DNA of 64,000 nt from Anaerohalosphaeraceae bacterium (GTDB lineage Bacteria; Planctomycetota; Phycisphaerae; Sedimentisphaerales; UBA12454), in NCBI GenBank assembly GCA_021108375.1, contig JAIORA010000012.1:62001-126000 (forward strand), in the 5' to 3' direction. Below the pieces are notes generated by a model. It searched no databases. It had not been told where the DNA came from and saw only the letters and a list, made by a program, of their open reading frames with translations. The stretch's first letter is position 1; each line of letters opens with the position of its first letter. The position numbers and the translations under genes are program-made. This document shows positions 658-61,258 of the stretch, one piece after another.

Positions 658-1460
658 CTTCATCTCCTTTAAAAATTGTTAGGGACCCACCCCCAAGCTT
701 TAACCCGTCATTGTACCAGATTTGTCTTGAAAAGTCAAGTGTTTTTCGCTGTTAGCCCAACAGTTTTTCAGCCGGAATAACCGTCAAGATACCGATTTAT
801 TGGGATTTGTTTTTGCGAATGATTTACATCTTTCACTTCGCCATTTAGCCCTGGCAACTTGTTTGCCGGGGTTTTCTTTTGCGAATGATTTACATCTTTC
901 ACTTCGCCGTTTAGCCCTGCCATCACTATGGCAGGGTTGCCCTTTTTCGGCCACAGGTCGGATGTTTAGCCCCCAAGCCTGCTTGGGGGGGCTTTTGTTT
1001 TGAATTTTAATTTTTGGTTATTTGGTATTGTTTAGGATTTAGATATTAGAATTTAGGATTTATTTTCCCGCCCACACCGCCACTTAGCCGTCGTGGCCTG
1101 CCCGACGGTTCACGCTTGCGTATTTTCTATCCCATCCTCATCGCATAAAAGCCGAGCCGCGTGAGCGGCCGGAATACTTCTTGTCATTGCGAGCGCAGCG
1201 CGGCAATCTATCTTTTTACTTTTTTAAAATCTGTGTAATCTGTGAAATCAGTGTCTAAAAACTCTGTGCTCTCTGTGTCCTCTGTGGCTAAAATAATCCG
1301 TGGTTAATTTCTTTTGTCATTCCCGCGAAAGCGGGAATCCATTTTTCTGTATCTTGTTTTTTAATCAGTGCTCTCTGCGTAATCAGTGTTTAAATAATCC
1401 ATCCCGATTTATCGGGATTCCTCAACTCAAAACTCAAAACTACTCATCACCGTGGCAATC

Positions 1461-3161
1461 TCAAGTATGAGATTTTATTTCATACATCGAATCTGACTCT
1501 TTTTGTTTTGCCAGAACCTCTGCGGCAATTTTACGATTAACTATATGGTAGTCCAGCACGCCTGCATAACCGCCGTCGGCATTGCGAACGAGAAGAAAAT
1601 CCTGCTCCTGATTCTTAATTTGTTCAAAAGATTCTGCCAACGGCATTGCCCCATCGACAAACTCGCCCGTCGGACTCATAATATCCATCGCTATCAGCCA
1701 CTCGTTCATCTCCTGATTCGCCATCGCATTGCGAATATCGTTCAGCGTTATCGAGCCGATTGGTTTTTCATTACTATCCAAAACCGGATAACAAAAATTC
1801 GATGTCGAGCTGACCAGCCCAATCACCTCGCCCAGCGACATACCGGCAGTAATAACCGGAACCTTACCATCCATCACGTCCGCAACTTTATGCACCTTAA
1901 TCAAATCTTCCGCTGTAACGTTGAGTCCAATTTCTTTCGCCCAGCCAGCACCGATTTTAACGAATATTGGGCCAATAATTTGCAGCACAAGTGCCCCGCT
2001 GATAACGACCAGCAGCATCATTGAAGCCATCTTTTCCTCAAAGCGACTGCTGGCAATAATCAAAAGTGCTATCGCTATCCCGCCCTGCGGGTAGAGACAA
2101 AGCCCAAGATACTTGCGTACCGATGGAACCGATTTGCTGATTCGAGCACCGATATACGAACCAAACGTCTTGCCGACAATACTGCCGAGAACGTAAGCGA
2201 CTGCCAGCAGCGTTATCACTTTATCGATATGCGCCACATTCAGCCGCGCCCCTGCCAGCACAAAAAACAATACATATATCGGCCCGCTAAGCCTGTGCAT
2301 ATGCTCAAAGCATTTTTCACTTCGTCTGCCGTCAACATTTATCAGCGTAACACCCAGTGCCATAGATGCCAGAATAATATCGAGTCCCAGCGCCCGCGCC
2401 AGACCGATGATGAGCAGCGCAAAGCTCAATGTAAATATCAGCACCTGGTCAGCATCGTCTATCCACTTCAGTATTTTATTGAGTACCATCCCGCCAGCAA
2501 AGCCTATCACCAAGGAGCCTGCAATTTCGATGAACGACCCCGCCATAGCCGACAAAAATCCACCTTCGCCCTGATGGCCGGTAACAACGCCAGCCACACT
2601 TATCCCGATAGCGTAAAGCATCATCGCCAGCGCATCATCGAGGGCAACGATTGCCGTCAGCATCATTGTTAAAGGCCCTCTTGCTTTACACTCCCAAAGC
2701 ACGCTGACTGTTGATGCCGGGTCGGTCGCTGCGCATATCGCACCGAACACTACCGAAACCGCCACCGCCTCCTGCCAGTTAAAAAAGTATATCATCACCG
2801 CAAAGCTCAGCCCGCCGACCAGAACAAATGCCGTCATCCCTTCGAAGAACAGAATCGTAAAAACCTGTTTGCCGAGTTTTGTGAAAACGCTTTTTTTAAG
2901 CTCGCCGCCGATAAGAAAACCTATCACGCCCAACGCAAAAACGTTGAACACTTCCAGCTTTGCAATCGTTTGCTCGGATATGAAGCCCGTCATCGGGCCA
3001 AGAGCGATACCTATTATAAGGTATCCGACAATGCTCGGCAGATGCAGCCGCGCAAAGAGCTTAGCGCCGGTAGTCGCCAGAAAAATCGCCAGCCCGACCA
3101 GCAGTATGATATTCGTGTGATAAATATCAAAACTTTTCAAATGTTCTATAAATTCATACAT
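1461..3161 (-). CDS. Cation:proton antiporter (CPA family) with C-terminal CBS-domain region
   Basis: 566 aa, many TM segments, antiporter-like GYLIIGIALGP and GAICAATDPAS motifs; CBS-like tail (PVLDSNEKPIGSITLNDIRNA). Confidence 0.85.
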   Translation of the reverse strand: MYEFIEHLKSFDIYHTNIILLVGLAIFLATTGAKLFARLHLPSIVGYLIIGIALGPMTGFISEQTIAKLEVFNVFALGVIGFLIGGELKKSVFTKLGKQVFTILFFEGMTAFVLVGGLSFAVMIYFFNWQEAVAVSVVFGAICAATDPASTVSVLWECKARGPLTMMLTAIVALDDALAMMLYAIGISVAGVVTGHQGEGGFLSAMAGSFIEIAGSLVIGFAGGMVLNKILKWIDDADQVLIFTLSFALLIIGLARALGLDIILASMALGVTLINVDGRRSEKCFEHMHRLSGPIYVLFFVLAGARLNVAHIDKVITLLAVAYVLGSIVGKTFGSYIGARISKSVPSVRKYLGLCLYPQGGIAIALLIIASSRFEEKMASMMLLVVISGALVLQIIGPIFVKIGAGWAKEIGLNVTAEDLIKVHKVADVMDGKVPVITAGMSLGEVIGLVSSTSNFCYPVLDSNEKPIGSITLNDIRNAMANQEMNEWLIAMDIMSPTGEFVDGAMPLAESFEQIKNQEQDFLLVRNADGGYAGVLDYHIVNRKIAAEVLAKQKESDSMYEIKSHT

Positions 3162-3940
3162 TTTAGTTCTCTGAAAGTTCTCTAAAAACCTACGTAATCA
3201 GTGTTTAAATAATCCGTGTCTAAAAAATAAAATATCCATCCCGATTTATCGGGATTCCTCAACTCAAAACTAACAATCTCTGTGGCTAAATAATCTGCGT
3301 ACAATTTCCGCTTCCTGCCCACAAACCAAAAGAGGCGATTTTATCTGTTTTAACTTTCACGAGCAAGACAAAAAAACCACCTTTTTTCGCCAATCCCGCT
3401 CATATCGCCATTTAGCCCCGGCAACTTGTTTGCTGGGGTTTTCTTTTACGAATGGCAATTCCCTTATTTAGCCCCCTGATTCATCAGGGGTTTGTTTTTG
3501 CGAATAATTTGCATCTTCCCCATCGCCATTTAGCCGTCGTGGCCTGCCCGACGGTTCACGCTTCCGTATTTTCTATCCCATCCTCATCGCATAAAAGCCG
3601 AGCGACGTAAGTCGCCGGAATAGTTAGCCCTTTTCGGCCGCAGGCCGAATGTTTAGCCCCCAAATCTGCTTGGGGGGCTCTGTCATTGCGAGCGCAGCGA
3701 AGCAATCTCTTTTTTTTTAGCCCCTGGGTCTTGTCCCGGGGGTATCTGCATCCTGTTTATCACCCCTCCACACATCGCCATTTACACCCCAAAAATCGGC
3801 AAAAAACGTCTTTTGCGGTCTTTTTGATCTACCCCTTGACATTTCCTACTAATCTGGTTAGAATCAGGTGCTTTTTTGAGCGTGTTCTTCCGAAAAAGCC
3901 CAATCAACTATAATTTTATAGAAAGGAACAAGGGACAAAA

Positions 3941-5821
3941 ATGGGAATTCAAGACATTCAACAAATTTTAGAGAGCAATCTGGATAGCAAAAACCTTAGC
4001 AAGCTGACAGCACTGAACAACGAAAAGCTGCACAAGTTTATCGCCGACGCTATCGAGCTGGCAAAACCAAAATCGGTTTTCGTCTGCACCGACTCCGCAG
4101 AGGACATTGCCTATATCCGTAATCGTGCCATCGAGCTCGGCGAGGAAAACAAGCTCGCAATCGAAGGCCACACATATCACTTTGACGGCTACTTCGACCA
4201 GGGCAGAGACAAATCAGTTACGAAATATCTGCTCAAGCCCGGCCAGGACCTCGGCGAAAGAATCAACTCCACCGATGCCGCCAGCGGAACCGCTGAGATA
4301 AACAGCCTGATGAAAGGCATTATGGCCGGCAGAGAAATGCTCGTCTGCTTCTTCTGTCTCGGCCCGACAAATTCAGATTTCTCCATCAGCTGCGCACAGA
4401 TAACCGACTCGCCATACGTCGCACACAGCGAACACATCCTCTATCGCAGCGGCTACGAGCAATTCAAAACTCTCGGCAGCAGTCCCGAATTTTTCCGCTT
4501 TTTGCACAGCGAAGGCGAACTCGAAAACGGTGTCAGCAAAAACATCGAGGGCAAACGAATCTATATGGACCTCAACAACGAAATCGTTTACTCGGTCAAC
4601 ACCCAGTACGCCGGCAACACCGTTGGCCTCAAAAAGCTGGCACTTCGCCTCGCTATCAACCGGTCGTCTAAACAAGGCTGGCTCGCCGAACATATGTTCG
4701 TTATGGGTGCTCAAGGCCCCGGCGGCAGAGTTACATACTTCACCGGCGCATTCCCCTCAGCCTGCGGCAAAACATCGACCGCGATGCTTGACGGCCAAAC
4801 AATTATCGGCGATGACATCGCATACTTCCGTAACATCGATGGACAGGTACGCACCGTCAACGTTGAAAAAGGAATTTTCGGCATCATCCGTGATGTCAAC
4901 ACTGACGACGACCCTGTCATTTATGATGTACTCAACGAGCCTGGCGAAATCATTTTCGGCAATGTCCTCGTCAAAGACGGCAAGCCAGCCTGGCTCGGAA
5001 TGGGCGAAGAATTACCAACCGATGGCGTTAACTATTGCGGCCAGTGGAGTCCCGACCAAAAAGGCCCTGATGGCAAAGCAACTACCGCTTCGCACAAAAA
5101 CGCGAGATACACAATCGCAATTTCCAGCCTTGCAAATCGCGACCCGATGGCAGACGCTCCTGAGGGCGTTGTCGTTGGCGGCGTAATTTATGGCGGACGC
5201 GACAGCGACACCTGCGTACCGGTCGAGCAGGCCTTCAACTGGACCGAGGGCATTATTGCCAAAGGCGCATCGCTTGAATCGGAAACTACCGCCGCGACTC
5301 TTGGAGCGGAGGGCGTGCGTTCGTTTAATATAATGAGCAATCTGGATTTCCTTTCACTGCCGCTTGGCCGATACGTCCAGAACAATCTCGATTTCGGCAA
5401 CAGCGTGAAGAACCCGCCGCTGATTTTCTCGGTGAACTATTTCCTCAAGGGTGCTGATGGCGAGTATCTTAATGGAATGCGGGACAAGATGGTTTGGATT
5501 CTCTGGGCCGAGCTTTGCGTTAACGGCGACGTTGAGAAGATTAAAACTCCTACTGGCTACATTCCCAAATATGCGGACTTGAAGAAACTGTTTAAGGAAA
5601 AACTTGACAAGGATTACACTGAAGCCGAGTATGTGGAGCAGTTTTCGATTCGGACTCCGGCTTTGCTTGCTAAGATTGACAGAATTGAGAAGATTTACAA
5701 GGAGCAGGTTCCGGATACCCCTGCGTTGGTTTATGAGATTTTCACAAAGCACCGGGATGCTCTTAATGCCGCCGCTAAAAAGTATGGCGAATGCATTTCA
5801 CCATTGACATTAGATGCATAA
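3941..5821 (+). CDS. pckG: Phosphoenolpyruvate carboxykinase (GTP)
   Basis: 626 aa; FPSACGKTSTAML P-loop region, GGVIYGGRDSDTCVPVEQAF and FSVNYFLKG motifs of PEPCK-GTP. Confidence 0.95.
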   Translation: MGIQDIQQILESNLDSKNLSKLTALNNEKLHKFIADAIELAKPKSVFVCTDSAEDIAYIRNRAIELGEENKLAIEGHTYHFDGYFDQGRDKSVTKYLLKPGQDLGERINSTDAASGTAEINSLMKGIMAGREMLVCFFCLGPTNSDFSISCAQITDSPYVAHSEHILYRSGYEQFKTLGSSPEFFRFLHSEGELENGVSKNIEGKRIYMDLNNEIVYSVNTQYAGNTVGLKKLALRLAINRSSKQGWLAEHMFVMGAQGPGGRVTYFTGAFPSACGKTSTAMLDGQTIIGDDIAYFRNIDGQVRTVNVEKGIFGIIRDVNTDDDPVIYDVLNEPGEIIFGNVLVKDGKPAWLGMGEELPTDGVNYCGQWSPDQKGPDGKATTASHKNARYTIAISSLANRDPMADAPEGVVVGGVIYGGRDSDTCVPVEQAFNWTEGIIAKGASLESETTAATLGAEGVRSFNIMSNLDFLSLPLGRYVQNNLDFGNSVKNPPLIFSVNYFLKGADGEYLNGMRDKMVWILWAELCVNGDVEKIKTPTGYIPKYADLKKLFKEKLDKDYTEAEYVEQFSIRTPALLAKIDRIEKIYKEQVPDTPALVYEIFTKHRDALNAAAKKYGECISPLTLDA

Positions 5822-5857
5822 AAATTTTGAATTTAAAAGTTAGAGATTAAAAGTTAG

Positions 5858-5890
5858 CCCCCGAATTACAATTCGGGGGTTTTCTTTTTT
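5858..5890 (+). terminator. Hairpin CCCCCGAATTACAATTCGGGGG followed by a T-rich tract, likely terminator of pckG (also a member of the TTAGCCCC hairpin family)
   Basis: Perfect inverted repeat 5858-5879 then ttttctttttt, 37 nt after the pckG stop. Confidence 0.65.
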
Positions 5891-6126
5891 GTTTAGTCTC
5901 GGCAACTTGTTTGCCGGGTTTTATTTTTGCGAATGGCAATTCCCTTATTTAGCCCCCTGATTCATCAGGGGGTTTTGTTTTACGAATGGTTTGTCGCATC
6001 AACACCGACTTTGTCATTTAGCCCCCAAGCCTGCTTGGGGGTTCGTGCTTGCATATGTCCTATCCCTTTCCCACCGCATAGTAGCCGAGCCGCGGAAGCG
6101 GCCGGACAAAAATCCCGTAGGGATTT

Positions 6127-6233
6127 AATAATAATAGCCCCGTGTGAGCGAAGCGAAACTCGGGGAAAAAGGAATCGTCCCCACCCCGACCCCGTAGGGG
6201 TCGAATAACCTTTTGCCCTTTGTCATTGCGAGG
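6127..6233 (+). repeat. 107-bp direct repeat, copy 1
   Basis: Aligns without gaps to 7153-7259 with about 3 mismatches (read by eye). Confidence 0.9.
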
Positions 6234-6288
6234 CGATTTTCCGCCGTGGCAATCTCAATTTTTGAGACACAGATTTACACGGTTTTTT

Positions 6289-6735
6289 TTATGATGGCTT
6301 TTTAATGGAAAACACTTGTTTTGGATAATCGATAATAAGTTTATAATCTTTCAAAAAATCATCTACCCCTAAGATTAAAGTGTTGATATTTTCGCAAACA
6401 GCAAATTGATGTTTTTTAATTTCTATTACAGGATTAGTTGTTACTGAGTTGCTTTTGTCATAAGACAGCAACTGCATTGTAAAGGTATGCATATAAAAAC
6501 GGACATCTCCGCCAACACCGGAACCAAAGTCGCACTCCACTTCTGCTCCTTTGAGATTGTGATATACTTCTTTTGCAATATATCCCGGAACAATAGTTCG
6601 ATCTGCGCCTGTATCGATAAGTCCCCATGTTGGAAACTCAAATCCATTTTCCGGATTAGTCAAAATTACCGGCACAAGCGGCGAGGGGGTACGTGATATT
6701 TGGTCTTTTCTAAATGGATAATTTGATATGGGCAT
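6289..6735 (-). CDS. Retropepsin-like aspartic protease domain protein
   Basis: 148 aa with GLIDTGADRTIVP (DTGA active-site signature) and ILGVDDFLKDYKLIIDYPKQVFSI C-terminal half. Confidence 0.75.
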   Translation of the reverse strand: MPISNYPFRKDQISRTPSPLVPVILTNPENGFEFPTWGLIDTGADRTIVPGYIAKEVYHNLKGAEVECDFGSGVGGDVRFYMHTFTMQLLSYDKSNSVTTNPVIEIKKHQFAVCENINTLILGVDDFLKDYKLIIDYPKQVFSIKKPS

Positions 6736-6930
6736 TTAAAAGACATGTATCATATTTTTGGTTGGGATAAAAAAAACAACAGGCGTATTAAACCCTTTTT
6801 TGATGGCACGTTTTCTAACAATGCACGGGTCCGTTCCGAAAGCAACAACGGTTTTGGTATTGAATGACTCGGTGGCTACAAATTTCCCTGCATACTTTGC
6901 GCTACCATTTACTATTGTCCTCGTGTGCAT
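6736..6930 (-). CDS. Small protein, DUF5678-like
   Basis: 64 aa: YAGKFVATESFNTKTVVAFGTDPCIVRKRAIKKGFNTPVVFFIP; its stop codon abuts the ATG of the downstream protease gene. Confidence 0.6.
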   Translation of the reverse strand: MHTRTIVNGSAKYAGKFVATESFNTKTVVAFGTDPCIVRKRAIKKGFNTPVVFFIPTKNMIHVF

Positions 6931-7152
6931 CGCTTATCCCTAAATTTTGCTCTGACTCTACTTGCACATTATACCAAATAATACGCAAAGGTCAAGAGCA
7001 ACTGCTGATTTATCGACTGTAACGACTTATTACCATTAAATTTAGGTCTTTTAGACCGTCCACAATCAAACTCGCCCATTTTACGGCCCTAAGGCCGGTT
7101 GTCAAATCTTTTTGTCATTACGAGGCGTTGTTTTTAAACCCCGAAGGGGTTA

Positions 7153-7259
7153 AATAATAATAGCCCCGTGTGAGCGAAGCGAAACTCGGGGAAAAAGGAA
7201 TCGCCCCCACCCCGACTCCGTAGGGGTCGAATAACCTTTTGCCTTTTGTCATTGCGAGG
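7153..7259 (+). repeat. 107-bp direct repeat, copy 2
   Basis: See copy 1 at 6127-6233; constant offset 1026. Confidence 0.9.
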
Positions 7260-7387
7260 CCGTAGGCCGTGGCAATCTATTTTTGTCCTTGCAATGTCGA
7301 CAAATCAGGCTATAATTTATACAGATTCAGGCCAAAAAAAGGAGAGTAAAAACCGCATCACTAATTAAAGCAGCTAATAACACACAA

Positions 7388-8005
7388 TTACATTTCCATG
7401 ATAATTTTCTTAAATGGTTTTAATACGTGGTGGTCTGGTGACCAAACTTTTGCCTTAAACGCAAGACCAATCGGCTGACCAGCATAATCATTTTTTCCTG
7501 CCAAAAAACAATGGAGTTTATTTTTGTGAATATGAGAGAGTTGCTCGCCTTTGGCTTTTGCGCATTTTAGATAATCATCCACACATTTCATAAGTGGGTC
7601 ATCTTTAACCGTCAAAAGACATAAATCTTCAAGCGTTCCTTTGGGCTTTTCAGGGCCGGGAAATATTATAAACGCTGTTTTCATCTTAGAATTTTGTGCG
7701 TATTCAAACGGTTTCTCTGGCACAGGCATATTTGTTTGCCCCATAGAGTGCCGAATGCTTCTTGTGGCAGCCTCAGCATCGGTTTCGGCATCACGAGCTA
7801 TAACTATCGTATCCACTTCTTCAAATCCGTCCATGTTGATTAAATTTGAGAGATAACTGGATAATTTGTCGTTTCCTTTAAAATCCATCACTTGAACATT
7901 TTCATCGTTTCGGTAAAAATCACACGCATGGCAAAAGAAATGGTAATCATCCTTACCTTCAGCGAGAAGTAGTTTTTTGCGCGTTATCGATTCTGGCTTG
8001 GACAA
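7388..8005 (-). CDS. TOPRIM-like (DUF3226-like) protein, probable partner of the upstream ATPase
   Basis: 205 aa, TTG start; KLLLAEGKDDYHFFCHA and TIVIARDAETDAEAATRSI resemble the TOPRIM Glu and acidic motifs. Start lies 1 nt after the ATPase stop, with GGAGG upstream. Confidence 0.7.
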   Translation of the reverse strand: MSKPESITRKKLLLAEGKDDYHFFCHACDFYRNDENVQVMDFKGNDKLSSYLSNLINMDGFEEVDTIVIARDAETDAEAATRSIRHSMGQTNMPVPEKPFEYAQNSKMKTAFIIFPGPEKPKGTLEDLCLLTVKDDPLMKCVDDYLKCAKAKGEQLSHIHKNKLHCFLAGKNDYAGQPIGLAFKAKVWSPDHHVLKPFKKIIMEM

Positions 8006-8006
8006 A

Positions 8007-9083: not shown

Positions 9084-9397
9084 TTTAATACATCCCTGAA
9101 ATTAAGGTATTACCGATGTTTTACTGAAAAAAAGCAAAATGGATTCTGCGTGATTTTGGCAAATTTGTCAACTCCTTTTCCAACAACAATTTGGTGGGGA
9201 AAATTAAAGGTGTTCGGTATGCCCTGTAGAAAAGCTTGAAATCATCCCCATAGAAGACTTGCGACCTCGCTAATTTTGGGTACACAATCTAAGGATGAGC
9301 AAAGTAGCCAACCTACCAAACAAAACCCGCAGGCTAAATTAAAAAATCCGCATCTAAAAAACTTCGTGTCTTCGTAGCTAAAAAAAAACTGTGGCAC

Positions 9398-9427
9398 AAA
9401 AAAAACCCGCCGAAAATCGGCGGGCTT
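9398..9427 (-). terminator. Intrinsic terminator of the 9522-10229 gene
   Basis: Perfect stem CCCGCCGA/TCGGCGGG (9406-9424), with a T-run on the minus-strand transcript. Confidence 0.8.
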
Positions 9428-9521
9428 TGCCACGAATAAGTAACGCAAAAAAGAAAGTATGGTTTTTTTATATTTCAACAGCCGACTCTTACAAACTACT
9501 ATCTACTTTATCTACCAGTAG

Positions 9522-10489: not shown

Positions 10490-11160
10490 AATTTTTAAAC
10501 GCTGATTTCGCTGATTACACAGATTTTTTTGTTTTTCATAGAAGCCGAGCCGGGTAACCGGCCGGATAGAACACAGAGTTCACAGAGTTTTTTTAGACAC
10601 GAATTTCACAGGCTTGTCCTGAGCGCAGCCGAAAGATTGCATTGATTAAAAAACAAGATAAAAAAATGGATACCCGCTTGCGCGGGTATGACAAAAACAT
10701 TATCCGGCCGGTTACCCGGCTCGGCTTCTATGCGATGGGAAAGGTTAATTTAAAAAGGGATTGCCGCGGCGATTAAAAATCGCCTCGCAATGACAAAAAA
10801 ACCTGCGGTCAGGACCGCAGGCTAAACATCGGCCTAACGGCCGAATAGGGGAAACCCCGCCATAGTAATGGCAGGGCTAAACGGCAGTGTGAGCGGGATA
10901 AGAAAATTTGCAGATACCCCCAAGGCAAGACTTGGGGGCTAATGACAATGGGAATGGGGTAAACAATACGGATGCACGAACCCCCGAATGGTGATTCGGG
11001 GGCTAAACGGCGATGTGGATGGGATAATCAATTCGTAAAATAGATTTCTCCACGTTGGTCGAAATGACAAAGTCCTGTGCGAGCGGGATAAACAGTATGC
11101 AGATACCCACGGGGCAAGACCCAGGGGCTAATGACGATGTGGACAAACTGTTGATAAGTG
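10490..11160. repeat. Intergenic hairpin-repeat island
   Basis: Several TTAGCC-type hairpins in minus orientation (about 10802-10820, 10856-10876, 10917-10938, 10981-11002, 11106-11128), two GCCGAG-GNRA elements (10543-10566 plus, 10701-10729 minus) and other short repeats. Confidence 0.85.
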
Positions 11161-12589: not shown

Positions 12590-13225
12590 AATTTTTAGAC
12601 ACGGATTTACACAGATTTTTACGAATTATTTAACCGCAGATTACACGGATTTAAAAACAAGATACAGAAAAATGGATACCCGCTTTCGCGGGTATGACAA
12701 AAAAAATTAGCCACAGATGGACACTGATAAACACAGATTTTAAAAAAGTAAAGTAAACTGCAACCCCACATTTGTAAATGTGGGGCTAACTTTTGAAAAT
12801 AAACAGATTTCTCCACGCTGGTCGAAATGACAGAGTCGGTGGGAAAAGGTAGTTTTGAGTTTTGAGTCCTTAGTTTTGAGTTAAGGAATCCCGATAAACC
12901 GGGATGGATTATTTAATAAAAAACACGGCCTCGCAATGACAAAAAGAACCGTGTCAAAAAAATATTCCGGCCGCTTATGCGACTCGGCTTCTAAAGCGAT
13001 GAGAAAATGATAAACAATTTGCAGGTACCCCTGGGACAAGACCCAGGGGCTAAATAAATTTCTCCACGTTGGTCGAAATGACAATATCGGTGTTAATGCG
13101 ACAAATCATTCGAAAGCACGAACCCCGGCAAACAAATTGCCGGGGCCAACTATTCCGGCCACTTACGTGGCTCGGCTTCTATGTGGTGAGAATGACAAAA
13201 TCATTGTCAAAACGTAGATTGACAC
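12590..13225. repeat. Intergenic hairpin-repeat island
   Basis: Hairpins at 12764-12785, 13028-13049, 13123-13145; GCCGAG elements 12963-12991 and 13152-13180 (minus). Confidence 0.85.
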
Positions 13226-13272
13226 GGTTGGTGTTTTTAGTTAGTATTCACCATTTCATAAGGATTTTAGAG

Positions 13273-14682
13273 ATGAGCAACAAAACAAAATGCGAAAAGG
13301 CGCTTGAGGTTTTGAAAAAACACTCCCAGGAACATTTGCTGAGATTCCGGGACGAACTCAACGAAAGCCAACAAGAAAATTTGCTCGCGCAGATTGAGAA
13401 AATCGATTTCGCTCAACTCGAAAATAATATCGAAAAATATGTCATAAACAATACCCCGCTAAAACTGCCGACAAAGCTCAGCCCGGCATCAGCGTATCCG
13501 GCAATAGCAAACAACGATAAACTAAAAGAAAAATATGCACAAGCGCAGACGCTCGGCGAGGAACTTATCGCAGCGGGAAAAGTTGCGGCGTTTGTTGTGG
13601 CCGGCGGTCAGGGGACAAGGCTCGGATACGATGGGCCAAAAGGTGATTATCCGATAAGCCCGATAGAAAACAAAACGCTGTTTCGGCTTTTTGCGGAGTA
13701 TCTAATTGCTGCGGGTAAAAAATACGGCTGCGACCTGCGGTGGTATATTATGACAAGCGAACTTAACTACGGCCAGACGATGGAGAGCTTTGAAAGGAAC
13801 AACTATTTCGGCCTTGACCCCAAAAACGTTTTTGTGTTTCAGCAAGGCACTGAAATTAACTTCGGGGCTGATGGCAAAATTCTGTTAGCGGACAAAGGTA
13901 AAATCGCATGTTCGCCAGACGGACACGGCGGAAGTTTGAAAGCATTGTACCAAAGCGGCGCAATCGCTGATATGAAAAAAAATGGTGTCGAATATATCAG
14001 CTACTTTCAGGTTGATAACCCGTTGATAAAAATTGTCGACCCGCTGTTCATCGGTTTGCACGCGATGGATAACGCGCAGATGTCGTCGAAAACGCTTGTT
14101 AAGTGCGAGCCTAAAGAGAAAGTTGGCAATTTTTGCCTCGTCGATGGGCGGGTTACGGTTATCGAATACAGCGATTTACCCGATGAGTATGCTGAAAAGA
14201 GGAATGCCGACGGAGTGCTGGTGTTTACGCTGGGCAGTATTGCGATTCATCTTATCAATACCGATTTTGTGGAAAAGCTAAACGCAAAGGGTTTTGTGCT
14301 ACCATTACATCGGGCGGTTAAAAAAATTACGTATGTCGATTCGGCGGGTAACAAAATTGAGCCGACAAAGCCTAACGGGATTAAGCTGGAAACGTTTGTT
14401 TTTGATGCGCTGCCGCTGGCGGAGAAGTCCATTATTTTTGAGACGCTGCGCGATGAAGAATTTGCGCCCGTCAAAAATGCGACTGGAGTTGACAGCGCAG
14501 AAGTTGCCCGGCAAATGATGAGCGAACGAGCTAAAAAATGGCTGCGAGCTGGTGGGATGGAAATCAGCGATGAGTGCGTAATCGAAATGGCTTCGTCGTT
14601 TGCAATATGCGCTGAAGATGCTGTGGAAAAAGCAAAAGGTCTTGCCGAAATAAAATCGGGTGAAAAGACTTATTTAGATTAG
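13273..14682 (+). CDS. UDP-N-acetylglucosamine/UDP-sugar pyrophosphorylase (UAP1-like)
   Basis: FVVAGGQGTRLGYDGPKGDYPIS motif; ORF is open from 13069 but the upstream part is repeat-derived, so ATG 13273 (MSNKTKCEKALEVLKK) is the likely start. Confidence 0.88.
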   Translation: MSNKTKCEKALEVLKKHSQEHLLRFRDELNESQQENLLAQIEKIDFAQLENNIEKYVINNTPLKLPTKLSPASAYPAIANNDKLKEKYAQAQTLGEELIAAGKVAAFVVAGGQGTRLGYDGPKGDYPISPIENKTLFRLFAEYLIAAGKKYGCDLRWYIMTSELNYGQTMESFERNNYFGLDPKNVFVFQQGTEINFGADGKILLADKGKIACSPDGHGGSLKALYQSGAIADMKKNGVEYISYFQVDNPLIKIVDPLFIGLHAMDNAQMSSKTLVKCEPKEKVGNFCLVDGRVTVIEYSDLPDEYAEKRNADGVLVFTLGSIAIHLINTDFVEKLNAKGFVLPLHRAVKKITYVDSAGNKIEPTKPNGIKLETFVFDALPLAEKSIIFETLRDEEFAPVKNATGVDSAEVARQMMSERAKKWLRAGGMEISDECVIEMASSFAICAEDAVEKAKGLAEIKSGEKTYLD

Positions 14683-14689
14683 GTTTTTA

Positions 14690-15180
14690 GCCACAGAGAT
14701 TGTTAGTTTTGAGTTAAGGAATCCCGATAAATCGGGATGGATATTTTATTTTTTAGACACTGATTTCACAGGCTTGTCCTGAGCGCAGCCGAAGGATTGC
14801 ACTGATTAAAAAACAAATAGCCACAGAGAACACAGAGATTCACAGAGTTTTTATTTTTCATAAAAGCTGAGCCGGGAAAACAGCCGGAACGGATACATTC
14901 GTAAAACGATTTTATTCCGGCGACTTACGCGACTCGGCTTCTAAAGCGATGGGAAAATGATAAACAATTTGCAGGTACCCCTGGGACAAGACCCAGGGGC
15001 TAAATAGATTTCTCCGCGCTGGTCGAAATGACAGAGTCTTGTGCGAACGGTTAATTTAAAAAGAGATTGCCACGTTGCACTCGGAATGACAAAGTCGGTG
15101 TTAACGCGAAAAACCATTCGCAAACACGAGCCCCCTCATAGTGATGAGGGGGCTAACTTGCGGTGCGGGTGGGTTAAAGA
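14690..15180. repeat. Intergenic hairpin-repeat island
   Basis: Hairpins 14978-14999, 15131-15152; GCCGAG element 14914-14942; GTCCTGAGCGCAGCCGAAG insertion 14771-14794. Confidence 0.85.
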
Positions 15181-18905: not shown

Positions 18906-19330
18906 TAAAATTTAGACACTGATTACACAGATTGCACTGATTTAAAAAAATGCAAAAAAGTGGATTCCCGTTTTCACGGGAATGACAAGGTCGGTGGGAA
19001 AGGTTAGTGTTTACGAAAGCACGAACCCCCAAGCAGGCTTGGGGGCTAAATGAACCACAACCTGCGGTCGCAATGACAAAAAGTATTCCGGCCGCTCCCG
19101 CGGCTCGGCTACTATACGGTTGAAAAATGATAAAATTTAGACACTGATTAAAAAATAAGATACAGAAAATGGATACCCGCTTTCGCGGGTATGACAAAAG
19201 AAATTAACCACGGATTTCGCGGATTGCACTGATTAAAAAATAAATAGTCACAGAGGAAAAAAATAAAAGTAAAAAGATAAAGTAAACTGCAACCCCACAT
19301 TTGTAAATGTGGGGCTAACTAAATAGGGTT
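18905..19330. repeat. Intergenic hairpin-repeat island
   Basis: Hairpins 19026-19045 and 19293-19314; GCCGAG-GGGA element 19085-19112 (minus). Confidence 0.8.
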
Positions 19331-47685: not shown

Positions 47686-50118
<2,433 letters not shown>

Positions 50119-50460: not shown

Positions 50461-50521
50461 AAATCCTCTGCGAAAAATCCCGGCGTTATTATGACGATGT
50501 TCGTTTCGCGGGGCTGCCTTA

Positions 50522-52236: not shown

Positions 52237-52248
52237 GTGGAAAAATAT

Positions 52249-53802: not shown

Positions 53803-53833
53803 TGCAATTCACAGCCAATTTTTTTTCGTTGCT

Positions 53834-54805
53834 TCAGGATTTCCGGTGAATTTCGACCATTCGGTTTGCCCGTTCTACAACTTTCGTTCGCAGTGCCGCT
53901 GGCGATAAAATCTCTACCTGGTCGCCATAACCGAGTATCCACCACGCAATTTCCCCTATCCCATCTACCCTAAACCGCAAATCAACTGAGCCATCTTCAT
54001 TCCAGTCTGCCTGTTGTGTGCTGTGCCATTGCACCTCTGCCACATTTTGAGCAACCATCGGATAAAAACGCAGATGGATGTTATAGATTCTCCCCTCCGG
54101 TATTATTGACCACGCCTTGCCGAGATATTCGTAAACATCAAAGTCGTCGCCATCAGTAAAACACTTTCCCGAAGGCTTGATTTTTCGCAATCGTCCTAAA
54201 TTAAATGTTCTTGTGGATTTGTGCATTGCTGAGAAGCCGATAACATACCACGCGCGATTTTTATAAAGCAGATGATAAGGGTGAATGGCGGTTTCAATTT
54301 CTTTTTTCTCAAACAGCGACCCATAGCCGATTTGCAGAACCTGTTTTTTCTGTATCGCTTTTTGAATTGCGGCAAACTTTTGGTCTAACAGATTCATTGT
54401 CGCGTGTTTGTCCGCGGCGATTGTGGTTTGCTTTAATGCGGTTTGGCAGAACGCTCGCAAATGCGCAGGCAAATTATTTTCAACTTTAAGCCCGGCAAGC
54501 AGAGCTGAATTTTTAAAAGGCAAAGGCAGATGATTCCGCATTTTGTGTATTAACATTAAAAGGCTGAGAGCCTCTTGCAGATTCAAATCTAATGGCGGCA
54601 GAAAAAACGCGGGGTCAACACTATACCCTCCGTCCTTTGTGTCATATTTGTAAGGCACGCCAATTATTGCCAGTTCTTTAAGGTCGCGAAAAATTGTTCG
54701 CCGGCTCACCCCAAGAATTTTCTCAAGATCGCTCGGCGCATATTTCTGCCCGGACTGAAGTGTTGTAAGAATTTTGACAACCCTGCTGACTCTACTCTGT
54801 TTCAT
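53834..54805 (-). CDS. WYL-domain HTH transcriptional regulator (YafY-like)
   Basis: HTH_11 N-term (YAPSDLEKILGVSRRTIFRDLKEL), WYL domain LLYKNRAWYVIGFS. Confidence 0.93.
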   Translation of the reverse strand: MKQSRVSRVVKILTTLQSGQKYAPSDLEKILGVSRRTIFRDLKELAIIGVPYKYDTKDGGYSVDPAFFLPPLDLNLQEALSLLMLIHKMRNHLPLPFKNSALLAGLKVENNLPAHLRAFCQTALKQTTIAADKHATMNLLDQKFAAIQKAIQKKQVLQIGYGSLFEKKEIETAIHPYHLLYKNRAWYVIGFSAMHKSTRTFNLGRLRKIKPSGKCFTDGDDFDVYEYLGKAWSIIPEGRIYNIHLRFYPMVAQNVAEVQWHSTQQADWNEDGSVDLRFRVDGIGEIAWWILGYGDQVEILSPAALRTKVVERANRMVEIHRKS

Positions 54806-55036
54806 TGATAGCCTTGTGATTAAATCTCCATAGATTGGCAGTGTTTTCTCCGGAGAGAATTATACCACAAAACGAAGATTTGTCAAATCAAGAGTGAGTT
54901 TGTTTTAAATAATTTTGATTAGCCCGCAGGGCAGGCTTTGCGGGTCGCTGCATATTTTTCTATTTCGGTTGCATCGCTGATTAGCCCCGGCATCTTGTAT
55001 GCCGGGGTTGTTGTCATTGCGAGGCCGTTAGGCCGC

Positions 55037-55157
55037 GGCAATCTCGTTTTAGATTAACCGTTCGCACACGACTTTGTTTGTCCCGCGCCAAATAGGCAAC
55101 TGCCGCAATTTGGTGCGCGGGTCATTTCGACTGAAGCGCAGCGCAACGGAGAAATCT
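55037..55157 (+). repeat. 121-bp intergenic repeat, copy 1
   Basis: Gapless match to 61259-61379, about 5 mismatches; contains hairpin CCCGCGCCAAAT...ATTTGGTGCGCGGG. Confidence 0.9.
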
Positions 55158-55219
55158 ACGTTAGTCCCACATTTACAAATGTGGGGTTGTCGTCTTGTCC
55201 CGGCAGCAAAAAGTTTCCA

Positions 55220-55990
55220 TTAATCGAATTCTATTACAAGGCTTAGCCCAAACAAATCTAAAGCAGAGGTATGCTGCCACTCAACGTTTAAGGCAGTGCT
55301 TGCGTTGATATCGAGGGAAGTGCCAATAAATCCACCGAAGAGTTCGCCGCTGTCAATGTCGTAGGATATTTTATTGGCAACATTTTTGCGTCTTGCAAAG
55401 AACTCACCGTCAACATAATTAACGAATGCACCACCATACAGCGATATATTCTCCCTGAATTGATAATGAGGCCCCACCGCCAACTGAACTTCTACCATAC
55501 TGGTATTAGTGTCCCATCTGTTGCCGTTGATTTTGCCTTCGCTTTCGACCTCAGTCCAAAGCATCTGAAAGATACCGCCGAGTTTAAGGTTTTCGCGAGG
55601 CTGACAAAAAGTCCACTTTGTTCCGAAGCCCAAAGCATAGCCTTTATCAGGGTCGTGTATATGTACTGACGTGCCAGCGACATTATTGGTGTTCCTTGTA
55701 CTTCCGGCCCCAAGCCGTATAAAGGCTTCCCATTTATCATTGAAGCCGCGCGAAATATCAACAAATACTCCGTGTGATTTGATGCCGTCCAAAGTGAAAG
55801 CCGGCCCGCCGCCTGGTGATGAACCGTTGTCGAAGTCCAGGCTCATCTTGCTGTAGGTATAACTAATTCCGACGCTGGTTTTGCCCTTGCCCAAATTTGC
55901 TGCTGGTGGACCAAAGGGAGCGATTGCGATTGCCGGGGTGCAAAACGATACAAGTAAAATAAGTGTGAGGATTGGTAATTTACGACTCAT
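55220..55990 (-). CDS. Outer-membrane beta-barrel-like protein
   Basis: Signal peptide, alternating amphipathic strands, C-terminal aromatic/FD end (LFGLSLVIEFD). Confidence 0.7.
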   Translation of the reverse strand: MSRKLPILTLILLVSFCTPAIAIAPFGPPAANLGKGKTSVGISYTYSKMSLDFDNGSSPGGGPAFTLDGIKSHGVFVDISRGFNDKWEAFIRLGAGSTRNTNNVAGTSVHIHDPDKGYALGFGTKWTFCQPRENLKLGGIFQMLWTEVESEGKINGNRWDTNTSMVEVQLAVGPHYQFRENISLYGGAFVNYVDGEFFARRKNVANKISYDIDSGELFGGFIGTSLDINASTALNVEWQHTSALDLFGLSLVIEFD

Positions 55991-56431
55991 AAATTGTCTC
56001 CTTTCAAAATTAATACTTCGTCACATAAAACAACTTACAACCAACGATATATTAAAACTCAAAGGCAACTCAATAGTCTCTGTGTCTATGGCGGATATTG
56101 ATGTATTTTATTTCAGATGTCAAGCAATTATTTTAGAGTATTTTAAGATTTTATGTACTGGTTTAGGCCGTTATGAGGACAAGGCTGACAAAGAAGATTG
56201 CGCAGCGATATTGAAATCTCGCGAGCAAATTTGATGCCGTCAGCCGAAGCCGCAGTAGGCATAAACGGTACACTAAAAATTAAACTGCTCTTGTCTTGTC
56301 AGCATTTTTTTAATCGCACTATTTACCCATCTAAGGACGTTTAGGGGGTTTTGGGTAGTATAATCGGGATAATCGCTGTTACCCCAATTGCCCGGCAGAA
56401 GCGTCGAAATTAAAGACAGTTTATTACCGCA

Positions 56432-57631
56432 TTATTTGTTTGTCTCAGATATGGCGGATATAGCCATATCCGCGACAGCCTCTGCCGCGTTGGTATTATT
56501 GAAAGGCTGTAACAATGTGTTGAGTTCAGTGCTGAGTTTTTTCATTGCTTCAGTATCATTGAGCAGTTTTTCACACGCTTCGACAATTGGCGAAACAGAG
56601 GTGAAATATGGCATAAATTCCGGCACAAGCCCTTTGCCCGCCAGAATATTCACTAAGGAAAGGTGCGGAATTTTCACTAATCGCTTACCGATAGTTTCCC
56701 ATAGGAATTTATTTGATTGATAAACTATCGCCATTGGACACGCCGCCGCCGCTACCTGCAGCGTTGCTGACCCGCTCGCCACCAGTGCCAGGTCAACCTT
56801 TTTAGCGGTATCGAAAACCGCGTCAGTTGCGTAATTGCACCGAAGGATTTTAAGCTCGGTTTTTTTTAATGTTTTTAGAACATTTTCATCCGCTGCAACA
56901 GCGGTAAATTTTATACCTGGATGCCTGGCCTTTAATCTGCGTGCCATCTGCTGCATTGCAGGCCACAAAGTTTTTATTTCTGCCGGCCGGGAACCCGGCA
57001 TAAGAGCGATATGCGCCGACGCAATCGAGAACCCACGATAATCTTTAGGCTTGATTTTTGATGTTTCAATTTCTTCTAAAAGTGGATTGCCGACAAACCT
57101 GCAATCAACTCCCCGACTGCCGAACCATTCCGGCTCGAAAGGCAGCAGTGCCGCCAGTGGTGCGGTACACAGGCGTTTAAGTTTTCTAATTCGCCACGGT
57201 GCCCACGCCCACAATTGCGGAGCGACATAAAACATTGTCTTTACATTACTTTTAGCTGCCGCTTTTGCGATATGAAAATTAAATGCCGGCGAATCGCACA
57301 CGATTACGAGGTCAACTTTGTTGTTCTCGAAATATCGCCTCGCTTTTTTGAAGACTTTTAGGAAGAAGAAAATTTTCAGAAGGGCCTTATAGTGCATCGC
57401 GGCCTTTTGGGTAGTGTTGACGATAATTTCACAACCAGCTCGTGCCATATTCTCGCCACCGAGTCCGACAAATTCGATGTCGGGGTTTTTCTGTTTCAGC
57501 ACTGAGATAAGTTTTGCGCAGAGCCTGTCTCCGCTGGTCTCAGCGGCACTTAGAAACACGCGACACTTTTTGCTGTTATTCTCATCAGAAATCATAAGCT
57601 CTTTACTAACCGAAAGTTCCAAAAATCTCAA
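56432..57631 (-). CDS. lpxB: Lipid-A-disaccharide synthase
   Basis: VFLSAAETSGDRLCAKLISVLKQ; YVAPQLWAWAPWRIRKLKR; LMPGSRPAEIKTLWP; ASGSATLQVAA. Confidence 0.95.
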   Translation of the reverse strand: MRFLELSVSKELMISDENNSKKCRVFLSAAETSGDRLCAKLISVLKQKNPDIEFVGLGGENMARAGCEIIVNTTQKAAMHYKALLKIFFFLKVFKKARRYFENNKVDLVIVCDSPAFNFHIAKAAAKSNVKTMFYVAPQLWAWAPWRIRKLKRLCTAPLAALLPFEPEWFGSRGVDCRFVGNPLLEEIETSKIKPKDYRGFSIASAHIALMPGSRPAEIKTLWPAMQQMARRLKARHPGIKFTAVAADENVLKTLKKTELKILRCNYATDAVFDTAKKVDLALVASGSATLQVAAAACPMAIVYQSNKFLWETIGKRLVKIPHLSLVNILAGKGLVPEFMPYFTSVSPIVEACEKLLNDTEAMKKLSTELNTLLQPFNNTNAAEAVADMAISAISETNK

Positions 57632-57853
57632 GTAAAATCACATTGCATCGCCGTTTAAGACACACCTGCCTGTATGACAGGCCAGCCCGGACAAACTGCT
57701 GTTTTGCCATAGTCGCCGACAAAATCGCCTTTAGCATTAACTCCTTATTTAAAAAGACGTTATGCTTTTATGTTTCACTTGTCCCTCCAATGGCACATAA
57801 TTTGCAACAATGTATGTATTCTGATTTTGAAATAAAACAGCAGAGCTATAAAT

Positions 57854-58249
57854 ATGGTTTTAAACGGCGTTAACGTACTTATAAACAATACTTCCAGCGA
57901 TTGGCTCAAGACTTTAAAGGATATATTGCGGACTCGCTCGGTCGAGCTTGTCCCTGCCAATCGCCCGTGCGATGCGCTCGAAATTATTGAAAGCCAACCA
58001 ATCCACACCGCGATTTTGGATACCGATAGCCGTTTTAGTAACGGCTTGAGCATTATAAAGGTGATAAGAACAAAAGCACCGACTTTGCCTTGCATATTGC
58101 TTAGCAGTCAAAGCGAACAGGCAATGCTGACAGATGCTCTTTCGCTGAACGTTTTCAGCGTGGTTTCTCGGCCGATAGACCCGGTCGTCTTACAGAACCA
58201 ACTGCACCGTATATTTGTTAAGAGGTATAACTGCGAAATTTTCGCTTAA
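57854..58249 (+). CDS. Single-domain response-regulator-like receiver protein
   Basis: 131 aa; HTAILDTDSRFSNGLSIIKVIR..LPCILLSSQ...VVSRPIDPVVL resembles a REC domain. Confidence 0.75.
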   Translation: MVLNGVNVLINNTSSDWLKTLKDILRTRSVELVPANRPCDALEIIESQPIHTAILDTDSRFSNGLSIIKVIRTKAPTLPCILLSSQSEQAMLTDALSLNVFSVVSRPIDPVVLQNQLHRIFVKRYNCEIFA

Positions 58250-58266
58250 AAAAATGGTTAATAGTA

Positions 58267-58290
58267 GCCGAGCAGCGGAAGCTGCCGAAT
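58267..58290 (+). repeat. GCCGAG-GNRA hairpin element upstream of groES
   Basis: gccgagCAGCGGAAGCTGccgaat: 4-bp stem + GGAA loop. Confidence 0.75.
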
Positions 58291-58409
58291 AAATTTTTGT
58301 CATTCCCGCGAAAGCGGGAATCCAGTTGTTTACATCTGGTTAAAATATTAGAAAAACTAAAAAAATTATTAACAATAGTAGAAATTTCTCGAAAGGAGAG
58401 AAAGTAAAA

Positions 58410-58697
58410 ATGAAAATCAAACCATTAGCCGACAAAGTACTCGTTGAACGCACTCAGGCAGAGGCAGTAACCACAGGCGGTATCGTCTTGCCGGAATCAG
58501 CCAAGGAAAAACCGCAAAGAGGCACTATCATTAGTGTTGGCCCGGGCAAACTGCTCGATGATGGCTCACGAAGCAAATTACAGGTCAAAAAAGGCGACCA
58601 GGTTCTCTTCACAAGCTATGCCGGCACAGATGTCAAAATCGATGCCAACGAGTATATGATTATGGACGAGTCCGACATTATGGCCGTAATCGAATAA
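58410..58697 (+). CDS. groES: Co-chaperonin GroES
   Basis: [40 protein letters not shown]. Confidence 0.97.
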
Positions 58698-58716
58698 AGC
58701 TCAAATGGCAAACAAT

Positions 58717-58742
58717 AACCGAGCAGCGGAAGCTGCCGGATA
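58717..58742 (+). repeat. GCCGAG-GNRA hairpin element in the groES-groEL intercistronic gap
   Basis: aaccgagCAGCGGAAGCTGccggata. Confidence 0.75.
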
Positions 58743-58777
58743 AAAATTTAGAATAAACATTTTGACAGGAGTTTGAA

Positions 58778-60403
58778 ATGGTAGCAAAAAAAATAGCCTT
58801 TAACACCGAAGCACGCAACACGATTCGCCTCGGTGTCGAAAAACTGGCAAAAGCGGTTAAGGTAACGCTTGGCCCGTGTGGCAGAAACGTAATTCTTGAA
58901 AAATCGTTCGGCTCACCAACTGTTACAAAAGATGGCGTTTCCGTCGCTAAAGAAATCGAGTTGGAAGATGCCTATGAGAATATGGGCGCACAGATGGTTA
59001 AAGAAGTCGCAAGCAAAACAAGCTCAGTCGCCGGCGATGGAACAACCACAGCTACGATATTGGCCGAGGCAATTTTCTGCGAAGGTCTCAAAAATATCAC
59101 TGCTGGCGCAAACCCGATGCAGGTAAAACGCGGCATTGATAAAGCCGTTATGAAAATTACTGAAGAGCTTGAAAAAATGAGCATTGCGGTTGATTCCAGC
59201 AAGCAGATTCAGCAGGTCGCAACTTGTTCAGCAAATCAGGATGCTGAAATAGGCAAAACAATGGCCGCCGCAATGGACAAAGTCGGCAAAGACGGCGTAA
59301 TTACCGTCGAAGAAGGCCAAAGCCTTGAAACAACAGTCGATTTGGTCGAAGGTATGCAATTCGACAAAGGTTATCTTAGCCCACATTTTGTCAATCACCT
59401 CGACGATATGACAGTCGTTCTTGAGAAGCCTTATATTCTTGTACACGAAAAGAAAATCAGCTCAATCAAATCGCTCATCCCGATTTTGGAAAAAGTTTCC
59501 AAACAGGGCAGGCCTTTGTTGATTATTGCAGAGGACGTTGAAGGCGAAGCACTTGCCACTCTTGTAGTCAACAAGCTGCGAGGCGTACTGCAAATTGCCG
59601 CCGTCAAAGCTCCCGGTTTTGGTGACAGACGCAAGGCAATGCTCGGCGATATTGGCGTTCTCGTAAATGCCGAACCTGTTTTTGAGGACCTCGGTATGGA
59701 CATCGAAAATATTGAGCTTGCTCAGCTCGGACAGGCAAAGAGGGTTACCATCGACAAGGACAACACAACAATCGTCGAAGGCGCAGGCTCAACCGCTGAC
59801 ATCAAAGGAAGAATTGAGCAGATTAAAAATGAAATCAACGCGACCACCAGCGACTATGATATTGAAAAATTGCAGGAGCGTTTAGCTAAACTCTCAGGCG
59901 GCGTTGCTCAGATTAACGTTGGTGCTGCAACCGAAGCTGAAATGAAAGAGAAAAAAGCACGCGTTGAAGACGCTCTCCACGCTTGTCGCGCAGCTGTTGA
60001 AGAAGGCATCCTTCCTGGCGGCGGAATCGCGGTACTGCGAACTCTCAAGGCTCTTGACAAAGTTAAAGTTGCCGGCGATGAAAAAATTGGTGTTGATATT
60101 GTTAAAAGAGCTGTCTTTGCTCCAATCAAACAGATTGCTCAAAACGCCGGCCTTGATGGCTCCATCGTTGCTCAGAAAGTTATTGAAACAAACGAAGCCA
60201 ATTTTGGCTACGATGCTATGGCAAAATGTTATGGCAATATGATTGATTTTGGCGTTATCGTTCCGACAAAGGTCGAAAGAATCGCTCTGCAAAACGGTGC
60301 TTCAATTGCCTCGTTCTTGCTTACAACCGATGCGGTAGTAAGCGAGATACCGGAAAAGAAAGCCCCCGCCCCCGCAATGCCGCAAGGTGGCGGAATGTAT
60401 TAA
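58778..60403 (+). CDS. groEL: Chaperonin GroEL
   Basis: [37 protein letters not shown]-term [13 protein letters not shown]. Confidence 0.98.
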
Positions 60404-60451
60404 AAAGTTTTAGAAGTCGTCCCGATTCATCGGGAGAGAAATTTAAGTTAG

Positions 60452-60471
60452 CCCCCTGATTTATCAGGGGG
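60452..60471 (+). terminator. Hairpin CCCCCTGATTTATCAGGGGG after groEL (TTAGCCCC-family member, possible terminator)
   Basis: Perfect inverted repeat, 49 nt after the groEL stop; weak T tract (ctttctgtt). Confidence 0.5.
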
Positions 60472-60742
60472 CTTTCTGTTACTGCTGTTTCCATCGCCAT
60501 AAAAGCCGAGCAACGTAAGTCGCCGGAATAATTAGCCCCCGAATTACAATTCGGGGGTTGTTTCACGAATTGATTATCCCGTATTTACCGTAGGGGCGAT
60601 TCGCGAATCGCCCCCTTGTCATACCCGCGAAAGCGGGTATCCATATTCTATCTACTGCATTCTATCTTTTTAAAAAAAATCTGCGTAATCAGCGTTTAAA
60701 TAATTTGATTCTATTTGCTGTTTAAGGTACTCTGTAACAGAT

Positions 60743-61033
60743 ATGTTTTTCAAATACTATAACAATTCGTTGAACCAGATGTCTCGCGGTTTTGCCAAGG
60801 GTCTTTTCGTAATTGGCTTGCTGCTGGCGGGTTTCGGCGTGCTGGTATATATATTGAAAGAAGTGCTGGCAGTTATTGCCGCTGCGATATTTATGGTGGT
60901 AGGTTTCTTTTGCTGTGTAAATGCCATTCGGATATACATACTGAGCCGAAAACTCAACAACGCTTCCGACCCGAACGACGACCACAGGGAAAACGTCCGT
61001 GTCCGTATCGATACCGATGCCGACGTTTTTTAG
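60743..61033 (+). CDS. Small two-TM membrane protein
   Basis: 96 aa, GLFVIGLLLAGFGVLVYILKEVLAVIAAAIFMVVGFFCCV. Confidence 0.65.
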   Translation: MFFKYYNNSLNQMSRGFAKGLFVIGLLLAGFGVLVYILKEVLAVIAAAIFMVVGFFCCVNAIRIYILSRKLNNASDPNDDHRENVRVRIDTDADVF

Positions 61034-61070
61034 ATTCACATTACCATTTCACGTTTGCATATTTTTCTAT

Positions 61071-61097
61071 CCCGCCCCCGCCCCCGCCCCCGCCCCC
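61071..61097 (+). repeat. (GCCCCC)n hexanucleotide tract
   Basis: cccgcccccgcccccgcccccgccccc. Confidence 0.95.
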
Positions 61098-61258
61098 ATC
61101 GCCATTTAGCCCCCTGATTCATCAGGGGGTTGTTGTTTAGTTAGCCCCCGATTTGTAAATCGGGGGTTCTTTTACGTATTGTTTATCCTTTTCCCATCGT
61201 ATAGAAGCCGAGCCGCGGAAGCGGCCGGATAGGGTTGTTGTCATTGCGAGCGTAGCGT

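Follow-up and report, generated by a model that had tools for sequence, protein, structure and literature searches.

The window, which is the whole 64-kb stretch of DNA analysed here, belongs to the 2.36-Mb genome of a Phycisphaerae planctomycete and holds 14 copies of a short hairpin element. These copies are intergenic and lie among housekeeping genes, including those for PEP carboxykinase, ThiE/ThiD2, LpxB and Cpn60. An earlier note on this DNA had named the sites, and all 14 copies were found there with the strand, stem and loop that it gave; the exceptions that it had singled out (12963−, 14865, 14914− and 60504) are real and represent degenerate copies.

1146..1176, plus strand: element copy, stem CCGC/GCGG, loop GTGA, tag TAAAAG
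3592..3622, plus strand: element copy, stem CGAC/GTCG, loop GTAA, tag TAAAAG; between divergent genes
6079..6109, plus strand: element copy, stem CCGC/GCGG, loop GGAA, tag TAGTAG
10539..10569, plus strand: element copy, stem CCGG/CCGG, loop GTAA, tag TAGAAG; inverted relative to the copy at 10700
10700..10730, minus strand: element copy, stem CCGG/CCGG, loop GTAA, tag TAGAAG
12963..12993, minus strand: element copy, stem TCGC/GCGG (T-G wobble), loop ATAA; between divergent genes
13151..13181, minus strand: element copy, stem CCAC/GTGG, loop GTAA, tag TAGAAG
14861..14891, plus strand: degenerate copy, AGCTGAG, mismatched stem, loop GAAA
14913..14943, minus strand: element copy, stem TCGC/GTCG (mismatched), loop GTAA
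19084..19114, minus strand: element copy, stem CCGC/GCGG, loop GGGA, tag TAGTAG
58262..58292, plus strand: element copy, stem CAGC/GCTG, loop GGAA, tag TAGTAG
58713..58743, plus strand: element copy, stem CAGC/GCTG, loop GGAA, tag CAATAA
60500..60530, plus strand: element copy, stem CAAC/GTCG (one mismatch), loop GTAA; TTAGCCC hairpin 4 nt after
61202..61232, plus strand: element copy, stem CCGC/GCGG, loop GGAA, tag TAGAAG

The window also contains a second hairpin family, in which TTAGCC is followed by a perfect, highly variable stem of 7–9 bp and a short loop. It numbers 28 hairpins in the window vs. 3 in the control, and 150 strict matches in the genome vs. 0.

845..1120, plus strand: four TTAGCC hairpins (845, 911, 966, 1084), on the same strand as the element at 1146
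3412..3750, plus strand: TTAGCC hairpins (3412, 3468, 3530, 3653, 3717) surrounding the element at 3592
10797..11006, minus strand: TTAGCC hairpins (10825, 10880, 10942, 11006) upstream of the element at 10700
All stretches of the TTAGCC family in the window: 845-3750, 5854-6041, 10797-11006, 12758-15156, 19022-19318, 54919-55010, 60448-61170

Between two rich stretches, the 35 kb from 19400 to 54900 carry neither hairpin family. Repeats of the form TGTCATTGCGAG...GGCAATCT and CCCGCG-AAAG-CGGG hairpins often directly follow the element (in the window, e.g., at 1180-1210, 19060-19090 and 61232-61270). A terminator family was considered and set aside: the terminator-like matches in the window are mostly TTAGCC hairpins or hairpins of other kinds, and element copies qualify in just a few cases, solely on the complementary strand.

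Each unit consists of a TAGNAG tag, an imperfect hairpin of the form CCG-(A)-GCNNC-GNRA-GNNGC-CGG, and a short A/T-rich tail (ATA, TAA or CAA). The element is longer than first described, in that its CCG and CGG flanks pair together. The stem comprises 8 bp (3 + 5 bp), with the A of CCGAG bulged and a GNRA tetraloop on top; constancy between copies is limited to tag, bulge and loop. When folded as DNA, both main types are predicted to form exactly this 3 + 5 bp bulged hairpin, with energies of −9.7 and −8.4 kcal/mol and z-scores of −3.6 and −4.4.

The stems had been described as compensated and the loops as GNRA in nearly all copies, and both observations extend to the full collection. To avoid circularity, copies were gathered by a scan that required the two flanks and did not require pairing. 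The insert was 12 bases long in 103 of 106 such matches; among these 103, the loop was GNRA in 100 and all four inner pairs were Watson–Crick in 91. The 16 distinct stems were 83% paired, vs. 60% when their 3′ halves were shuffled (shuffle maximum 77%). In a set of 84 distinct copies from several genomes, which was gathered with a loose pairing filter that the flank-only scan did not use, both sides had changed at seven of the eight stem pairs, and 97.5% of cells were paired, vs. 86.7% when shuffled and at most 49% when slid; copies inside one genome are not independent of each other. In G016, a genome from another family of the same order, the stems are mostly CAGC/GCTG, TCGC/GCGA and TTGC/GCAA and the loops are GGAA or GGGA. 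Thus, compensated changes are not limited to one genome. The compensated drift of the stems implies past or present selection on the fold itself. A covarying hairpin with a fixed polarity and a high copy number is established for this element, and the covariation and loop constraint of the full collection support the proposal that it was selected or generated as a folded single-stranded nucleic acid of fixed polarity. A covarying stem is not by itself new, as REPs (repetitive extragenic palindromes) have been described before whose palindromes are maintained by complementary changes in the stem (PMC2817692, PMC3733652).

Genome-wide, the strict pattern AGCCGAG-N4-24-CCGGAAT has 74 matches vs. 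1 in the reversed control. A covariance-model collection, which the earlier note had suggested, recovered at least 150 copies in the host genome, as each of the 150 scored candidates passed with E ≤ 2.4e-7, and both covariation and loop constraint hold across it. In a class-level survey with a threshold of E ≤ 1e-6, 5 of 198 genomes had matches, and many copies were present only in G000 and G016; the per-genome counts of this survey (up to 36 each) are lower bounds, and G016 holds at least 63 copies. Of 115 sites, 12 lie within automatically called ORFs, though some of these, at least, are questionable ORFs or start sites. Relative to neighboring ORFs, copies are antisense more often than sense (121 vs. 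69 relations; p = 2e-4, uncorrected for shared neighbors), and both neighbors are opposed to the copy in 41 cases and of the same sense in 15. GC skew is associated with element orientation (p = 0.001), but skew tracks the coding strand (r = 0.71). Because of this tie, and because the adjoining mosaic repeats are themselves skewed, we make no claim regarding replication. A 71-bp tandem array of 3.7 copies with the element inside ends contig C4 (L084:5052-5311), and further contigs also start or stop at element copies, so the assembly was probably broken by these repeats.

Two subfamilies can be distinguished by foot and loop. Across 114 distinct copies, the loop is GGAA in 47, GTAA in 35, GGGA in 20, GTGA in 4 and another sequence in 8, with GNRA accounting for 109. 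The foot is GAAG in 40 copies, GTAG in 35–36, AAAG in 15 and GCAG in 10, plus others; most copies lack the canonical GT[AG]G foot of REPs. The base before the foot AG is coupled to the second loop base: T or C occurs with G in 49 copies and with T in 5, while A occurs with G in 19 and with T in 37 (Fisher p = 3.5e-10, for distinct copies that are not independent). Subfamily 1 combines a (T/C)AG tag with a GGRA loop, and subfamily 2 combines an AAG tag with a GTRA loop. Part of this coupling may stem from the recent amplification of a few sources. All four copies at an intact Y1-HUH gene belong to subfamily 1, both copies at a broken one belong to subfamily 2, and it appears that the foot and the loop changed in step with the protein.

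These genes also bear on the parallel with REP/BIME elements that had been drawn from the window, and on the accompanying suggestion of a REP-type transposase. The host genome has four Y1_Tnp matches, two of which are Y1-HUH genes with inverted element copies alongside.

L012:1393-1878 on contig C4, minus strand: intact Y1-HUH gene, 161 aa

The L012 protein has the residues N89-H90-V-H92 and the tyrosine Y146, and the motifs SNHVH, RVWT and YIINQQ. Element copies flank its ORF in inverted orientation (1362+ and 1922−), with more nearby (2025+ and 2203−). The broken gene (L011/L048), which is 57% identical to the L012 protein, has an in-frame TGA near codon 11. Two inverted GTAA copies lie directly downstream of it, one with its outer stem altered on both sides to CCC/GGG. 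The broken gene and its two hairpins sit beside 5S and 23S rRNA genes (L048:1501-2308). The remaining two Y1 genes, L009 and L010, lie far from these two in the tree. It is most likely that the Y1-HUH genes beside inverted copies spread the element.

An alignment query of genome contigs found relatives of these proteins at 80 loci, whereas a single-protein query found none. Most of the relatives belong to Planctomycetota; others come from Acidobacteriota, and a few from further phyla. The HUH histidines, the W of the W-T motif, and the Y and the Q four residues on (Y....Q) are invariant among the relatives. A sequence search of the PDB returned no relative of the protein. The AlphaFold model of one relative, L111 (pLDDT 91.8), best matched 4ER8, a structure of the REP transposase from E. 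coli in complex with a REP hairpin, followed by the IS608 and ISDra2 TnpA proteins. In a maximum-likelihood tree, the two host proteins pair as sisters (99/91), and a branch with support of 100/97 unites them with three other Phycisphaerae proteins; the L012 protein groups with Solibacter, Bryobacterales and planctomycete relatives. Of the three nearest relatives, those in G036 and G027 have inverted GNRA hairpins of their own on either side, with different stems, a 1-nt 5′ bulge, a YAG foot and GCGA or GCAA loops. These hairpins are repeated genome-wide with covarying stems, in 22 and 5 copies respectively and 0 in reversed controls. In a survey that admitted 2 × 2 internal loops, 49 relatives had a clear inverted repeat, and in 24 of them this repeat contained a GNNA tetraloop hairpin, vs. 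9 of 980 shuffles. Its usual forms are AG + CCGC-GA-CC-GTNA-GG-GA-GCGG and AG + CCG-GAA-GC-GTNA-GC-GA-CGG, and some further relatives show a GNNA hairpin on the opposite strand. The tetraloop thus looks like a trait of the whole clade, with stems that differ.

Several further hairpins accompany Y1 genes. Class-3-like genes (L111-L190, e.g., L138, L147 and L165, with neighbors L151 and L160) have GA/GA or GAA/GA internal loops with a GTNA tetraloop, an end-hairpin pattern that spans Planctomycetota and Acidobacteriota. A third type, AGCGTG-GA-GC-GCAA-GC-GA-CACGAT, has 29 strict copies in G016 (L222, L229, L239), where it often lies directly ahead of the element, and it also occurs beside the class-3 gene of G055 (L022). 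In other Phycisphaerae, the TTAGCC family flanks a different Y1 clade: in a separate Y1-HUH group with the motif WTKGFDKRFCF, the gene is bordered on each side by TTAGCCC hairpins.

Loci of the WTKGFDKRFCF clade: L031, L035, L036, L037, L042, L043, L044, L049, L050, L172, L173, L181, L184

This clade and its hairpins look like an undescribed REP/transposase pair. A gene of the clade was looked for in the genome of the window and not found, and a search of open-licence papers returned no description of the TTAGCCC family.

It is useful to compare the element with known systems. With GTAG REPs and REPtrons (Nunvar 2010, PMC2817692; Di Nocera 2013, PMC3733652) it shares a length of 20–40 bp, a foot with an imperfect GC-rich palindrome, more than 100 copies, an intergenic location, inverted pairs, complementary stem changes, and copies that flank a Y1-HUH gene. 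Unlike them, it has a foot that is mostly GAAG, AAAG or GCAG, with GTAG in about one third of copies, and a constant GNRA tetraloop, whereas their loops are mostly 2–3 nt long and many are TY or CMA. Its protein also departs from the REPtron/RAYT type, as L012 scores 19.2 bits on NCBIfam NF047646 REP_Tyr_transpos, for which the cut-off is 80. On Pfam Y1_Tnp it scores 20.5, below the cut-off of 23 that its relatives exceed. Judged by sequence, L012-type proteins fit the "class 3" TnpAY1 (Quentin 2018, PMC6006769), with which they share Planctomycetota and Acidobacteriota hosts, a size of ∼160 aa, and the signature motifs NHVH, W[TA] and Y....Q. "Atypical secondary structures" and high-copy hairpins near the gene were already described for that class (PMC6006769). 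In contrast, the foot described there is CnGA, which many other relatives in our tree carry before GCC, while the foot here is TAGNAG. We found no mention in that paper of the GNRA loop, the compensated stem drift or the two gene-tied subfamilies. To the class 3 description the element adds a GNRA tetraloop, stem drift under pairing, a coupling of foot and loop with two genes, and an interlocking with a second hairpin family. The E. coli TnpA-REP/REP system (4ER8; PMC8266576) offers the best fold match (to the L111 model) and likewise involves a 5′ foot and a bulge recognized in a folded single strand, but protein identity is ∼10%, the E. coli REP loop is not sequence-selected, and the Y motif class is different. 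Elements of the IS200/IS605 family (IS608, ISDra2) have a Y1-HUH fold and subterminal hairpins with a 5′ guide, whereas no IS boundaries were seen here and hairpins that lack the gene are scattered in many copies. Given the departures from the GT[AG]G and CnGA feet and from the NCBIfam cut-off, the element is REP-like in its working but no member of a named REP family. Our search of open-licence papers found none that joins GNRA loops with REPs or RAYTs.

We consider it probable that the element is a repeat of the REP type and forms one of the end hairpins in a single-strand DNA transposition system, handled by a Y1-HUH nuclease of the class 3 kind. The tag-bearing strand would fold into CCG-A-GCNNC-GNRA-GNNGC-CGG, and the small L012 nuclease would bind this strand by way of three features: the TAGNAG foot, the bulged A and the GNRA tetraloop. 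It would then cut single-stranded DNA next to the hairpin and rejoin it elsewhere, so that hairpins would multiply in intergenic DNA. Because the protein would recognize the shape and a small number of unpaired bases rather than the stem sequence, the stems would be free to drift if both sides change together. Binding, cutting and mobilization are what we infer, as is the identity of the bases that the protein would read. In E. coli, TnpA-REP reads GTAG and an unpaired bulge, and other groups read loop bases too; across the E. coli, Stenotrophomonas and Marinomonas systems, the foot, unpaired stem bases and loop bases are determinants in differing mixtures (PMC8266576). Several observations run counter to this mechanism. 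The GT[AG]G foot is missing from most copies, the foot known for class 3 is CnGA, and the intact protein stays under the Pfam Y1_Tnp cut-off. The antisense bias is not simply predicted by insertion into the lagging-strand template, and a class-3 gene was not detected in G016 despite its wealth of copies.

The close association with the TTAGCC family suggests another reading, in which the hairpins are passive passengers, copied by recombination or replication slippage within a larger intergenic mosaic of 45-nt linkers, TTAGCCC hairpins and TGTCATTGCGAG repeats, while the Y1 proteins no longer act on them. TTAGCC hairpins lie on the strand of neighboring elements and are joined by a common ∼45-nt linker ending CCCATCGC; linker-like sequence (by a loose pattern) lies upstream of 74 of 114 copies, and of the 22 elements closely followed by a TTAGCC hairpin, 20 are separated from it by a constant 4 nt, or by 3 nt where the copy is shorter by one base. 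That the 71-bp tandem array includes the element and that one of the two transposase genes is broken also fit such copying. However, the linker is missing from 40 of the 114 copies, including those around the intact gene, and G016 copies lack it altogether. Together with the compensated drift, which implies that the fold is or was selected, this makes passive copying unlikely.

Less probable still is that the GNRA hairpin acts in transcripts, as an mRNA 3′-end stabilizer, a terminator or a small RNA. GNRA loops are indeed typical of structured RNA, some copies lie between convergent genes, and in other bacteria REPs can have effects on mRNA (cited as background in PMC6006769). Against this role, no Rfam family matches the copies, the T-run after the hairpin is not constant, and the copies at 3592 and 12963 lie between divergent genes. 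Moreover, the excess of copies opposed to both neighbors means that the transcripts of those neighbors carry the complement, which has no GNRA loop. Thus, the presence of a transposase, the lack of an Rfam family and the antisense bias argue for single-stranded DNA rather than RNA. Integron-like attC sites are likewise folded single strands with extrahelical bases, and the fixed polarity, the bulged base and the variable stems in same-strand runs recall them. This identity is very hard to credit: no integron integrase in the genome scored above the TIGR02249 cut-off, and the neighbors in the window are ordinary housekeeping genes, not cassettes. The core motifs of attC sites are GTTRRRY/RYYYAAC, and these occur in none of the inspected copies.

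Taking the element as a REP-type repeat of a single-strand DNA transposition system, it may belong to a clade-wide structural code, a broader proposal that we hold tentatively and place just short of probable. This code would consist of a (T/C/A)AG foot, a bulge or G·A internal loop, and a GNRA/GNNA tetraloop on a nearly free stem, with foot and loop co-selected and two proteins, one of them dead, each running its own subfamily. If so, a tetraloop familiar chiefly from RNA would serve in DNA recognition across Planctomycetota and Acidobacteriota. Earlier work placed the class 3 TnpAY1 as possibly intermediate, lying between insertion sequences and REP systems, and noted "further experimental analyses required" (PMC6006769). 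With its intact gene, dead paralogue, two foot/loop subfamilies and hundreds of natural variants, which reveal which bases may drift, this genome offers a clean test system. Two questions become testable here: how a single-strand DNA nuclease distinguishes its own hairpins from the other hairpins present in its cell, and how mosaics arise from two REP families.
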